Part shown: positions 1-28,939 of the stretch, piece by piece
How the letters are laid out: each line of letters opens with the position of its first letter
Position numbering within the stretch: position 1 is the first letter of the stretch
From: a virus
IMG/VR virus record: IMGVR_UViG_3300027822_000032
Coordinates: 1-29,935 of that record
Reading direction: 5' to 3' (one strand)
DNA length: 29,935 nt
Translations under genes and position numbers: made by a program
Notes under the pieces: generated by a model
What the model was told of the DNA's origin: nothing
The model's input: the letters and a program-made list of their open reading frames with translations, nothing else
The model's database searches: none

Positions 1-1088
1 CCCGCCTTTACAAGTACGCCATTAACATCGACAACGACGCCACCCAGCATACCTTTAAAAGCATCCTCTCCTTCAAACCAATCAACGATAATGAATTCTG
101 CGGAGTCCCCCTTCTTTAATTTCATCCAGTTATAGGACTTACCTGCTCGGTACCGAGCACGTGGATGCTTAATGACTAACCCTTCCTGTCCCTTTGGCTC
201 CCACTCAGTTGTTTGTTTTAAAGCCCAACTAAAGAACGCCATTATAGCTTCCTCAGTATAGAATAAATGATGTTGTAGATAAGAGACAGGAGGGTTCTGT
301 GGTCCCACTCGAAAATCGTATATAGGGAAAATTCTTTCTAAAGATTCTAAACGTTGTCGTTGATTCAGTGTAGGGATAGCCATGTTATCGAAGGTGATAT
401 AACGAGCCATAGATTTATGAGGTTTGTCTGAACGCAGATACCCCGACATGAAATCGAAGTCATGGGCTAACTGCGGGGCTACCAACTCCCCGTCATAATA
501 ACCACCGCCTTTATCTGCTATATCATCTTTGATATGGCCTAAGCCGCAGATAGTATGCCCACTTCGAGTAGTAAAGATACCATCTTTATGGTCAGACCTG
601 ATACCATCCAACTTTAACGAAGAGTATGCAGGTAGAACCAGTTGGCCAGAGTCCCAGTCTTCAGCGCCCTGGACAAACCGTTCAATAATTGTCCCTGGCC
701 ATATTTCATTTACAGTATTAGCGGCTACGCCTATACCTAATTTATGAAGAACAATCTTTCTAAGAAGATAGGCCTCGGAAGGTAGGAGGTCACGCATATG
801 TGCGAACAGAAGCTCCTTGGCATCTTTCCCTGTTACTTCTCTGTTTGATAGTCGGTCAAGAATCTTCCAAGTGGAATCATTTATTTCACCCACACCCTGT
901 CCCTTTGATAGAGAGTTATCGGGAATCTGTTTAATGTAATACTTTTTAAACGGGTCAATAGCATAATTGAATATATTTTTTATTTTAGAACTACGCTTAA
1001 ACATATTAAGCATTTCTTTTTTCTTAGTTCTCTTAGGCTCACGCCCAATCAGAATCAGAAGTTTGTGTTCTGCTGATAGTATGTCCAT
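1..1088 (-). CDS. ATP-dependent DNA ligase (3' end cut by window edge)
   Basis: Seals nicks in phage DNA using ATP. About 362 residues are visible with no stop before position 1, so the C-terminal OB part is missing. Nucleotidyltransferase motifs can be read in order: motif I KLDGIR (K159 is the adenylated lysine), motif III YYDGEL (about 198-202), motif IV EGLVIK (302-307) and motif V WMKLKK (321-326). The start is ATG at 1088, 11 nt after AGGAGGG, and overlaps the end of the VRR-NUC gene by 34 nt, so it is translated in the same leftward operon. Between motifs IV and V, the residues RARYRAGK are encoded partly by a copy of the dispersed palindrome (143-160). This is a position where ligases normally have Y-x-x-G-K, so the copy fits the family consensus. 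The ligase call is firm; whether the copy is an insertion is not. Confidence 0.93.
   Translation of the reverse strand, partial: MDILSAEHKLLILIGREPKRTKKKEMLNMFKRSSKIKNIFNYAIDPFKKYYIKQIPDNSLSKGQGVGEINDSTWKILDRLSNREVTGKDAKELLFAHMRDLLPSEAYLLRKIVLHKLGIGVAANTVNEIWPGTIIERFVQGAEDWDSGQLVLPAYSSLKLDGIRSDHKDGIFTTRSGHTICGLGHIKDDIADKGGGYYDGELVAPQLAHDFDFMSGYLRSDKPHKSMARYITFDNMAIPTLNQRQRLESLERIFPIYDFRVGPQNPPVSYLQHHLFYTEEAIMAFFSWALKQTTEWEPKGQEGLVIKHPRARYRAGKSYNWMKLKKGDSAEFIIVDWFEGEDAFKGMLGGVVVDVNGVLVKA
143..160 (-). repeat. Dispersed palindrome, copy in DNA ligase
   Basis: Minus: GTGCTCGGTACCGAGCAG. Both arms are the GTGCTCGG/CCGAGC form. Read as ARYRA. Confidence 0.65.
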
Positions 1089-1468
1089 GGAATTTTTACC
1101 CTCCTGTCACATGCCGGTCTTGTACATTCGTGCTCGGTGCCGACTACCTTAGTGGTAGCCATAGTACGTAGGCACCACTCAATTAGCTTATCAACCATCC
1201 CATAGCTGTTAGCCCACACAGCGTGTTGGCCTAAAGCCCTCATTCTATTAATCATTAGGCGTTGGTTAGGCCGAGGTTTTCTACCTGGCCGTTTCATTTC
1301 AATAAAGACTACTAAACCTTTTGGCAGTATGCATATCCTATCCGGCATACCCCTTTGATTATGGGGGTTGCCCTTAATACACATCCCGCCTATAGCTTTT
1401 ACTTTATCGACGAGGTGGTTTTCTACCATGTCCTCGGTTATTCTATGGGGCCGATATCGCTTTCTCAT
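1055..1468 (-). CDS. VRR-NUC domain nuclease
   Basis: Small PD-(D/E)XK-fold nuclease of the VRR-NUC family, common in phage replication modules and probably acting on branched or replication-intermediate DNA. The protein has 137 residues. Residues 1-100 are the domain: E16, GMPD with D43, then IEMK with E57 and K59, and Q69, forming the D...E-x-K-type active site. The start overlaps the stop of the upstream 121-residue gene by ATGA. A complete copy of the dispersed palindrome (1130-1147) lies just past the domain and is read in frame as VVGTEH (residues 108-113). The 25 residues after it look unrelated to the family, so the element may have created or moved the C-terminus (inference). Confidence 0.88.
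   Translation of the reverse strand: MRKRYRPHRITEDMVENHLVDKVKAIGGMCIKGNPHNQRGMPDRICILPKGLVVFIEMKRPGRKPRPNQRLMINRMRALGQHAVWANSYGMVDKLIEWCLRTMATTKVVGTEHECTRPACDRRVKIPWTYYQQNTNF
1130..1147 (-). repeat. Dispersed palindrome, copy in VRR-NUC gene
   Basis: Minus: GTAGTCGGCACCGAGCAC, asymmetric arms, read as VVGTEH. Confidence 0.9.
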
Positions 1469-1830
1469 TCTACCACGTCCTTCTTTAATGACCGTGATGC
1501 TCTTATAGATGGCGTCTGATAAGGCGGGATGTTTTTCTTTGGGTCTCTGTAGTGGTCGCCCCTGATTAAATAGTGGCCTTCTCTTCTCATACGTTGTACT
1601 CTATCCCACTCCCCTTCTTTAGGAGGGTGCTGTTCGAATGAGCGCATACCCGTAGAAGTAATTCTGTGGTACCCTTTAGAAAGGGGACGTTTGGCTTTCT
1701 TTTCTTTTACATTCGAGTCTCTAAAATACTGAGGAAATTTTACACTTAGTATCTTAATAGCTCGATTTTGTCTTGCACTTCTGTCAGCATTTCTAAAATT
1801 TGTGCTACTTTTTCGTTTGTAGTTAGGCAT
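1465..1830 (-). CDS. Small basic protein of unknown function
   Basis: A 121-residue, strongly basic protein (many K and R, few acidic residues) that I do not recognise. It sits between DNA polymerase and VRR-NUC in the leftward replication operon. It starts 4 nt after GGAGG, 13 nt past the polymerase stop, and overlaps the next gene by 4 nt (ATGA), which suggests translational coupling. No membrane segment or cysteine cluster is visible. Its charge would suit a nucleic-acid-binding or structural accessory role, but there is no direct support for that. The gene is supported by its ribosome binding site and tight packing. Confidence 0.75.
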   Translation of the reverse strand: MPNYKRKSSTNFRNADRSARQNRAIKILSVKFPQYFRDSNVKEKKAKRPLSKGYHRITSTGMRSFEQHPPKEGEWDRVQRMRREGHYLIRGDHYRDPKKNIPPYQTPSIRASRSLKKDVVE

Positions 1831-27793: not shown

Positions 27794-27796
27794 CTA

Positions 27797-28939
27797 ATGC
27801 CAAATGAGCTACAAACATTATTAACAGACCTTCCCGCAGTGGATTTGTCTCCTCGTCAACCTACTACCGGTTTTATGGATAACTGGAAAAATGCATTAGG
27901 GCTGGCTATAGCAGAGGACTTACCCACTGTGTCTCCACGAGTGTCCTCTGTTACGGAAAGTATGCGGAAAGATAAGCTATGGAAACATTACCAAGCAGGA
28001 GGTATTCCACAAGGAGCGTGGAATTATTATCTGGAACAGGATGGCACGGACTACGACGGGCTTGCAGAATACGCTAATAAAGTCCTCGGTCTTAAAGATG
28101 TCCCTATATATGAGGACTACGAAAAGCAACGTCAAGAGGAGTATGCTAACTATCGAGCTACGTCACAAGAAGTTTTTGATAAGCAGAGTTTATGGGGTAA
28201 AGTAGGTCAGTTTGCTGGGCAAGGCCATGCTATGGCTATAGACCCTTTATATGCAGTATCGTTTTTTACTGGATATGGAGCCGCTAATACGGTTCTTCAA
28301 GCCGCCGTTAGGGTGGGCCTCACCGAGGCGGCCATTGAAACTGTGGCTCAGCCATTCGTAAAAAGTTGGAAAGATGAAGTCGGTGCCGACTACTCAGGCG
28401 CCGATATGCTGACTAACATAGTTTTAGCAGGAACGGGAGCCGGAATAATAGCCGGGGCCGGAAAAGGATTAAGTACCGTATTAGTTAAAGATGCGACTAA
28501 GCATTTAAATAAATCTAACGACCCTGCCCTCAATCCTATCAAACATGTAATAGACCAGCATGATGGTGAAGAAAACCTGTTAAAGGTACTACGGGGTGAT
28601 GAAGGCGTAGACATCCAAAGTAATAATCTTACCCCTAAGACAGACGCTTCTATAGGCTTCGATTTAAGGTCTGCTGAGGAGGTATTAGCTATGCAGGAAG
28701 AGCTATTCCGGCAGAGGGTCGCCAAGACTACTGCTGAACGACAAGCGGTAATTGACGCTAATGCTAAAGGCGAAGCACCTAAAGATAAGAAGGTAGTCGG
28801 CACCGAGCGGGTAGAGCCTGTTATAAAGAATGTGACTCCAGAAATGCATGACGCTATCCAGACTCCATTAGTTCGACAATCTATTGACGAAGTTGAAGTG
28901 CTCGATAACAACATTAAATTAATGGAGGAGTGTTTCTAA
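27797..28939 (+). CDS. Internal virion protein, membrane-segment containing
   Basis: A 380-residue protein. After a soluble N-terminal half (WKHYQAGGIPQGAWNYYLEQ) there are two long hydrophobic stretches, one near residues 156-180 (AANTVLQAAVRVGLTEAAIE) and one near 205-230 (MLTNIVLAGTGAGIIAGAGK), as in parts of large ejection proteins (T7 gp16-like). It may be the front part of what other phages encode as one long protein with the next gene. Two palindrome copies are in frame: EVGADY (28376-28393), between the hydrophobic stretches, and VVGTER (28793-28810) in a linker. Confidence 0.62.
   Translation: MPNELQTLLTDLPAVDLSPRQPTTGFMDNWKNALGLAIAEDLPTVSPRVSSVTESMRKDKLWKHYQAGGIPQGAWNYYLEQDGTDYDGLAEYANKVLGLKDVPIYEDYEKQRQEEYANYRATSQEVFDKQSLWGKVGQFAGQGHAMAIDPLYAVSFFTGYGAANTVLQAAVRVGLTEAAIETVAQPFVKSWKDEVGADYSGADMLTNIVLAGTGAGIIAGAGKGLSTVLVKDATKHLNKSNDPALNPIKHVIDQHDGEENLLKVLRGDEGVDIQSNNLTPKTDASIGFDLRSAEEVLAMQEELFRQRVAKTTAERQAVIDANAKGEAPKDKKVVGTERVEPVIKNVTPEMHDAIQTPLVRQSIDEVEVLDNNIKLMEECF
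28376..28393 (+). repeat. Dispersed palindrome in internal virion gene
   Basis: GAAGTCGGTGCCGACTAC, read as EVGADY. Confidence 0.85.
28793..28810 (+). repeat. Dispersed palindrome in internal virion gene, second copy
   Basis: GTAGTCGGCACCGAGCGG, read as VVGTER. Confidence 0.88.

Follow-up and report, generated by a model that had tools for sequence, protein, structure and literature searches.

Dispersed palindromes fill the whole of a podovirus-type phage genome, the complete IMG/VR record IMGVR_UViG_3300027822_000032 (29,935 bp, referred to as the window and analysed at its full length). These sites, with the consensus GTAGTCGGYRCCGACTAC, are under purifying selection at inherited places, as is apparent from their number, spacing, places and synonymous conservation. 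That the family is real, not mobile, conserved in place and changing in concert is well supported: in related phages the places persist while the palindrome sequence changes throughout each genome. The palindromes are, on balance, probably DNA sites of a dimeric phage protein, most likely the phage's own ParB-like clamp, which would cover the genome. The family is therefore relevant to the organisation or marking of viral DNA by the virus itself.

A dense palindrome family in the window

Allowing up to three mismatches, GTAGTCGGYRCCGACTAC matched the window 27 times, against a mean of 0.01 and a maximum of one match in 100 dinucleotide shuffles; 24 copies were found with up to two mismatches and 31 with up to four, and the pattern reversed (read backwards), used as a control, gave none. 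The first-pass annotation, made from the letters of the window alone, had described a palindrome family dispersed through a short-tailed phage and too dense to be random, with about 30 copies agreeing at 16-18 of 18 bases. The family itself is confirmed by these counts, and the estimate of its size was slightly high, given the 24 copies within two mismatches. With a symmetric weight matrix, 32 sites were located at a mean spacing of 935 bp, and the dyad centre, which the matrix itself weighs, was TA, TG, CA or CG in all of them. As that annotation had also stated, copies occur on both gene arms, within and between genes; 15 of the 32 sites are mostly non-coding, compared with a non-coding fraction of 0.086 of the DNA. 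The spread of sites over the entire genome does not suggest a single packaging (pac) site.

A second arm had likewise been noted as frequent in coding copies, and this too was recovered. Nine places (143, 1130, 1942, 3562, 13191, 18603, 22571, 24256 and 28793) have CCGAGCAC, or GTGCTCGG as its mirror, with no more than two changes; all are inside called genes with the possible exception of 13191, which may lie in a gene leader because a perfect promoter (13080-13108) and an ATG at 13229 flank it. Since CCGAGCAC encodes Glu-His instead of Asp-Tyr, it is read as a tolerated half-site variant, chiefly of coding copies. Inspection by hand placed the coding copies in more than one frame, mostly GTA GTC GGY RCC GAS YAC, or V V G T/A D/E Y/H; the copies at 7842 and 14118 use other frames, in which GTAG is altered to GCAG or CCAG and a stop is avoided.

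Palindrome types in related phages

The same palindrome family is carried by L008, L009 and G001, whose capsid proteins are 84%, 76% and 72% identical to that of the window; because these are separate contigs, an assembly artefact, which had been raised as a possible explanation, is unlikely. More distant relatives have different palindromes, about as densely spaced (6.7-10.3 per 10 kb across eight genomes), namely GGGGTTCCACGTGGAACCCC in G006, G009 and L014, GGTGTTCCACGTGGAACACC in L015/L016, GGGGTGTGACGTCACACCCC in G030, GGGGTGCAATATTGCACCCC in G031, GGGGTGAAACGTTTCACCCC in G032, GGTGTGTAACGTTACACACC in G033 and GGGGTGTCACGTGACACCCC in L018, the types of L014-L018 being derived from short contigs with 4-6 copies. 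A single consensus is followed within every genome that has a family. In the eight genomes that also bear a ParB-like gene, the finder returned 18-30 copies each, against at most 5 in randomised sequence (five first-order Markov randomisations per record), and the dyad was pyrimidine-purine (YR) in 215 of 216 sites found with matrices that weigh the centre. Finder counts in four records without a close ParB were borderline relative to randomised sequence (G008, 9 versus 8; L050, 12 versus 12; G035, 9 versus 9; L119, 8 versus 8), and L005 and L007 were rejected as family members, their single exact matches looking like chance.

On the portal tree, 10 of 11 palindrome-bearing rows form a single clade (100/99), with G033 among the unresolved rows, and palindrome types track subclades. 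The capsid tree requires three changes of the palindrome label, at least two of them forced, and puts L013 with H-type rows; L013 owes its B-type label to few copies, and the labels of L013, L011 and L017 rest on 1-2 copies each. Gene calls outside the named records were made by the analysis's own open reading frame chooser. As a separate observation, the plus strand of the G006 and G009 records shows TG at 11 of 13 and 10 of 12 sites with asymmetric dyads (11:2 and 10:2), regardless of gene strand.

Inherited places and concerted change

Between G006 and G009, which are 67.6% identical, eight of the nine sites in aligned DNA are shared, the other 20 G006 sites lying outside the alignments; sites in alignable DNA are also shared in G000/G001 (2/2) and G000/L008 (1/1). 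The places are kept even where the palindrome differs. Of 225 testable coding sites, 32 lay within six codons of a site of different type in the ortholog (random mean 1.74, maximum 5 of 100), and for sites of the same type the count was 16 of 34 (random mean 0.54, maximum 3), under a null of uniform placement within genes that is made lenient by tolerant loops and the shared ancestry of the genomes. The DNA polymerase gene offers an example: the window encodes V-V-G-T-D-Y where G006 encodes E-F-H-V-E-P, each spelling its own palindrome. The copy in this gene at about codon 304 (window 3053-3070) shares its place with other-type sites of G006, G009 and G031, which match a G030 site.

Gene ends tell a similar story. 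Sites lie between -25 and +100 bases from a gene 3' end in 104 of 216 cases, and different-type 3'-end sites are shared by 148 of 819 ortholog pairs, against 62.1 by chance (maximum 108 of 500); between the Vibrio phages and the other genomes the figures are 22 of 188 against 5.5 (maximum 21). The null here is a random draw of genes, and some 3' ends have hairpins in any phage. Of 17 palindrome-bearing records inspected directly after the capsid gene, 15 carry a palindrome of their own there, in some cases with an asymmetric centre (G030, L018 and L011); L013 has none, and G033 has no testable capsid.

Synonymous positions are constrained as well. At identical residues, third codon positions of G006 and G009 agree at 36 of 40 positions inside sites versus a fraction of 0.40 outside, and the corresponding values are 17/23 versus 0.43 for G000/G001, 4/5 versus 0.47 for G000/L008 and 5/6 versus 0.44 for G000/L009. 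Furthermore, site spacing is more even than random in all eight genomes (coefficient of variation 0.60-0.75 versus 0.93-0.96), individually with p<0.05 in four of them and 0.05-0.12 in the other four, and such evenness would fit coverage of the genome better than control of a few promoters.

These results also speak to the idea of a tiny mobile element, which the first-pass annotation had entertained and which found no support. Spread through the genome of a small mobile palindromic element, of the repetitive extragenic palindromic (REP), Rickettsia palindromic element (RPE) or miniature inverted-repeat transposable element (MITE) kind, would agree with copies dispersed in and between genes and in several reading frames. 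Such an origin is nevertheless scarcely credible, given that the places are conserved over lineages and palindrome types, that alignable sites are nearly all shared, that every genome keeps a single consensus, and that synonymous positions are under purifying selection.

DNA sites or RNA hairpins

RNA hairpins at gene 3' ends, serving in termination, processing or RNA stability, would account for the enrichment of sites in short non-coding gaps, for the site after the capsid gene, where several relatives without the family (for example ZP6 and G013) have an ordinary GC-rich hairpin, and for a copy between convergent genes in G006, G009 and phiVC8. Complementary flanks lengthen the arms by at least three pairs at 22 of 98 intergenic sites (control 10%) and 9 of 113 coding sites (control 4%). 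Some observations on this side count directly against a role as DNA sites alone: flanks lengthened by at least five pairs are found at 9 of 98 intergenic sites (control 1.8%), next to 2 of 113 coding ones (control 0.2%); the phiVC8 record has software-predicted rho-independent terminators over its copies at 6600, 21322, 24135 and 29215; and coding copies favour CA over TG dyads on the coding strand (45:15).

Against hairpins as the general explanation stands the finding that about half of the sites (113 of 216) are in coding sequence, that hybrid arms would mismatch and break an RNA stem, and that intergenic TG:CA dyads in the eight genomes show no orientation relative to transcription (21:21). 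The overall dyad bias of 66:36 comes from the coding copies, where codon choice can explain it. Rfam gave no match at the gathering threshold, and a list of terminator-like elements included a single one of the 22 window sites between 4 and 22 kb, on the opposite strand from the gene; the window palindromes thus lack the form of intrinsic terminators, a GC-rich hairpin with a T run on the coding strand. A GNRA loop on the coding strand was considered and rejected: 6 of 6 asymmetric centres counted by hand in the window conformed, although transcription is uncertain at the two that lie in the control region, and the ratio was 9:5 in G001, 1:1 in L009 and even at intergenic places. Where both sides of a site have changed, complementarity is kept in 33 of 51 intergenic pairs and 32 of 61 coding pairs, a result compatible with hairpins as well as with symmetric half-sites. 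Hairpins are accordingly an improbable explanation of the family, and the RNA-processing role proposed earlier does not hold as a general one. A minority of intergenic copies may double as hairpins, since the arms are lengthened at a minority of places and terminators are predicted in phiVC8.

A ParB-like protein as candidate reader

If the palindromes are sites in double-stranded DNA, a candidate reader is encoded at 7145-8854 on the minus strand of the window, where a ParB-like protein of 569 amino acids was assigned by PHROG 3264, by sub-threshold matches to PF02195 and TIGR00180, and by an AlphaFold2 (AF2) model. The model has a predicted template-modelling score (pTM) of 0.63, with high confidence over residues ~1-240 and low confidence beyond ~300. 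Its best Foldseek matches are Noc with its DNA site, ParB bound to a cytidine triphosphate (CTP) analogue, and KorB (E ~4e-4 upward), and the ten best rows of VIA-align have Z 11.0-12.6. Residues 1-123 align with Noc 7ol9 at Z 12.6 and a root-mean-square deviation (rmsd) of 2.0 over 96 residues, and two-domain alignments cover 197 residues of Noc 7nfu, 181 of ParB 6t1f and 203 of KorB 8qa9 (Z ~11, rmsd 4.4-5.1). The modelled protein thus has an N-terminal ParB nucleotide-binding fold, followed by a central helix-turn-helix (HTH) DNA-binding domain. The segment G[YF][RK]x[VI]xxFLG is conserved in eight close members, and HHR, a candidate CTP motif, is invariant in 14 aligned sequences, with the preceding G nearly so.

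ParB-like is the sole gene family present in 8/8 ParB-bearing palindrome metagenomic genomes and in 0/12 compared relatives, and the seven longest compared relatives without the gene have no clear palindrome family; profile A1 detected the protein in 8 of 18 searched records. The four palindrome genomes of sufficient length for this comparison (the window itself and, through the capsid, G001, G006 and G009) were recognised by their palindrome first, and ParB was then found in 4/4. In addition, half-site distance correlates with distance in the DNA-binding domain (Spearman 0.44, p 0.038, eight proteins only), compared with 0.19 (p 0.18) for the N-terminal and 0.25 (p 0.11) for the C domain.

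Sites of G006 and G009 hold GTTCCAC twice, as GTTCCACGTGGAAC, and GTTCCAC is described as a half-parS bound by the ParB of P. aeruginosa. One palindrome type thus contains a ParB site. The bacterial half-parS units might also be taken to mean that the phage hijacks sites of a host protein, either the host ParB or another nucleoid protein; this is very unlikely, as phiVC8 and 69E27.1 have different palindromes although both have Vibrio hosts, and the window's own palindrome type is not a parS. A ParA was found with PF13614 in 0/14 records, which may be incomplete (control 14/14 genomes), and the locus therefore falls outside the standard ParABS partition type.

The palindromes would be binding sites for a dimeric phage-encoded protein, distributed at ~1 per kb over the entire genome. 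On the model of ParB, Noc and KorB, the ParB-like protein would bind first at the palindromes, then form a closed, nucleotide-dependent clamp and move along adjacent DNA by sliding; with sites ~1 kb apart, the clamp could cover the whole phage genome. Such a protein coat might organise, mark, silence or protect the phage DNA, and reader and sites would change specificity together, giving each lineage its own palindrome at the old places. Coating of the genome by the ParB-like protein is a plausible inference, and the protein is likely to be the reader of the palindromes in this clade.

Several observations weigh against this assignment. The PF02195 score of the window protein is 18.6 bits, under the cut-off of 26.3, the ParB match of NCBIfam TIGR00180 is likewise sub-threshold, and solved structures are matched weakly by sequence alone. 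The CTP motif, GHHR, is divergent, and sulfiredoxin and serine kinase show similarity to the N domain too (Z 7-9); with such shared folds, a divergent motif and sub-threshold scores, the function cannot be read from the fold by itself. Phylogeny confounds the 8/0 association, since phages with palindromes group together on both the portal and the capsid tree, and 7/0 is the distribution of a terminase-small-like family. The 12 compared relatives comprise seven contigs of at least 22.7 kb and five fragments, and absence of ParB is therefore no proof. G030-G033 were found via ParB, the palindrome then being recovered in 4/4, which introduces ascertainment. With eight proteins the covariation test is weak, and the HTH alone gives 0.35 (p 0.07). 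Distant ParB homologs (L080-L089 and L113-L119) have no clear palindrome family, and further searches for ParB relatives returned L052 and the distant L113-L119 only, with no clear family in either. Conversely, G011, one of the 12 compared relatives, has 12 copies of an AT-rich palindrome, TTAATTAACATGTTAATTAA, from a weak matrix and above all 60 randomisations (maximum 7), and no ParB homolog. Palindromes with no detected ParB are also present in Vibrio phages.

Palindromes in Vibrio phages and alternative readers

By portal, the closest named phages belong to the phiVC8/VP2/VP5 group of Vibrio phages (44% identity). In phiVC8 a GGGTGTCGACGTCGACACCC-type palindrome is present in 11 copies (at most 4 in randomised sequence), at places comparable to those of the window, and JSF9, a near relative of phiVC8, has 12; 69E27.1 has a different palindrome with seven near-copies by the finder (randomised at most 3) and five with a refined consensus, a weaker case. 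The sites of phiVC8 and 69E27.1 include the tail of the small terminase gene, the position after the capsid gene, and that between primase and PurZ. No ParB-like protein was detected in phiVC8 by PF02195, profiles or family models, nor by profiles in 69E27.1 and JSF9; ZP6 lacks both a palindrome family and ParB. Since these phages have palindromes and no detected ParB, either another reader acts in them or ParB is not the reader, and the sites may predate the link to ParB or have a different reader. Four 20-bp inverted sequences have been noted in phiVC8, and at least one predicted promoter overlaps a palindrome (PMC4802629). They resemble the window family in genomic places and half-site style; 11 copies were found here versus the four noted, which are not described as one genome-wide family in the part of that report available to us, and phiVC8 differs from the window phage in that no ParB was detected.

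A candidate for the reader in the Vibrio phages is possibly p40 of phiVC8 (L120 34621-35421, 266 amino acids), one of 15 phiVC8 proteins present in 69E27.1 and not in the palindrome-less ZP6; p40 was ruled out as a ParB relative (hhalign probability 0.1). More generally, the palindromes could be genome-wide operator- or stoperator-like sites through which another phage protein (a small HTH protein, the small terminase, or p40 in Vibrio phages) controls transcription, with ParB a bystander of the clade. The comparable sites of phiVC8, the position of nearly half of all sites around gene 3' ends, the terminase-small-like distribution and the presence of p40 are in keeping with this, and the principle is known from cluster A mycobacteriophages (PMC9283540). 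It is rather unlikely all the same, because ParB is the sole 8/8 versus 0/12 family, one palindrome type contains a ParB site, coding location and fairly even spacing are unlike promoter operators, and the sites are symmetric and, when intergenic, unoriented, unlike stoperators.

Returning to the ParB-like clamp, a fuller scenario can be put forward tentatively and with less confidence. In this podovirus lineage, in which no ParA was found, the phage's own ParB-family clamp would coat the genome from ~20-30 fairly even sites; clamp and sites would have switched specificity jointly several times at fixed places, including the DNA polymerase gene, and in the Vibrio relatives a different protein would have taken over the inherited places.

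Individual copies and other features of the window

The left arm of the window contains DNA polymerase A, exonuclease and ParB-like genes, and the right arm the large terminase, portal and capsid genes. The first copy (143-160), found by weight matrix, has alternative arms on both sides and five mismatches to the main consensus; the next, in an endonuclease-like gene (1130-1147), shares its codon with different palindromes of G006, G009 and G031. Besides the copy described above, the DNA polymerase gene contains one at 1942-1959 and a degenerate one at 3562-3579. Intergenic copies follow at 4133-4150 (exact) and 4846-4863, with an exact copy at the exonuclease gene 3' end (5752-5769). The ParB-like gene is accompanied by a degenerate copy (7048-7065, weight matrix) and a second one (7078-7095) on its 3' side, one within it (7842-7859) and one directly upstream (8880-8897). 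Further copies are found at 9473-9490 and, between genes, at 9889-9906 and 10944-10961, and the divergent control region has those at 11900-11917, 12289-12306, 12563-12580 (degenerate, weight matrix) and 12832-12849.

Rightwards, a hybrid-arm copy marks the start or leader of the first late gene (13191-13208), and a further copy lies near the 3' end of the terminase-small-like gene (13796-13813); sites 23-39 bases from the small terminase gene 3' end are also present in G001, G006, G009, phiVC8 and 69E27.1. The coding copy with CCAG in place of GTAG is at 14118-14135. Exact copies occur at the stop of the large terminase gene (15613-15630), upstream of the portal gene (16677-16694) and at a gene stop (25430-25447), as does an exact intergenic copy with lengthened arms (21459-21476), and the post-capsid copy is at 20600-20617. 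Coding copies with hybrid arms are at 18603-18620 (same codon in G001, L008 and L009), 22571-22588, 24256-24273 and, degenerate, 28793-28810; a further coding copy is at 28376-28393.

Two perfect sigma-70 promoters with extended -10 (12/12 positions, TG before the -10) are directed away from the control region, at 13080-13108 (+) and 9710-9682 (-). An exact tandem repeat of a 41-bp stretch (12956-13037) and scattered AAGCTTTGGGGT repeats (12397-12801) possibly constitute an origin or control region. A distinct palindrome, CACGTACATGTATACATGTACGTG, at 10980-11003 was listed as terminator-like on the minus strand. Elsewhere, the G001 portal gene is seemingly split over two frames in its contig (6648-8314), and in G012/L034 the 9-mer ACGATCATA occurs 15 times in 17 kb, versus 0.15 expected (both strands), the finder detecting no 20-bp palindrome family there. 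Megablast of window positions 1-25,000 against 50,697 phage records gave no match, nor did tblastn of three ParB-like proteins against the named-phage collection, and a genome-contig scan for a host or prophage origin yielded 138 stretches, none of them a relative.

Comparison with known systems

In the open-licence literature, no title or abstract was found to describe a palindrome family spread over a phage genome with a ParB-like protein as its reader. A survey of the ParB fold reports orphan ParB-like proteins in phages, and the words 'palindrom' and 'dispersed' are absent from its main text (PMC12704722). Copies at differing places in related genomes, as expected of REP or RPE elements, were not observed, eight of nine aligned sites being shared and the same codons being used across types; no search for a REP-type transposase was made. 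ParB-family clamps load at palindromes in the Noc, KorB and parS systems, and ~30 such sites in a phage of 30-40 kb would, if true, be an extreme natural case and a compact system in which to examine clamp coverage, DNA marking and counter-defence. The concerted, repeated change of tens of sites at fixed places, together with their reader, would amount to a natural experiment in the joint specificity change of a DNA-binding protein and its targets. Since related Vibrio phages are in culture, this wider question is open to direct test.

Noc is a ParB-family CTPase that reads palindromic Noc-binding sites (NBS) dispersed over the Firmicutes genome, without a dedicated ParA. Dispersed palindromes and the ParB-family fold match are common to that system and the present one, which differs in that the phages are of ~40 kb, with ~1 site per kb, also inside genes, and with a lineage-specific site sequence. 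KorB, a clamp of the ParB family, leaves its operators by sliding and exerts its effect at a distance (PMC11790492). The resemblance to KorB and the OB sites of plasmid RK2 lies in the fold match to 8qa9, whereas OB is another palindrome and KorB works with KorA. The IR1-4 sites of N15 are dispersed in its genome. SopB of the N15 prophage is a phage ParB-type protein with these palindromic sites (PMC7205306); it differs in having four sites and a SopA partner, versus ~20-30 sites and no ParA match (PF13614) here. Cluster A mycobacteriophage stoperators, more than 20 repressor sites through the genome and partly in short intergenic gaps, are 13-bp, asymmetric, bound by a monomer and oriented with transcription (PMC9283540). 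They share with the present family the presence of many sites through one phage genome, whereas the sites described here are palindromes of 18-20 bp, half of them coding and those at intergenic places unoriented.

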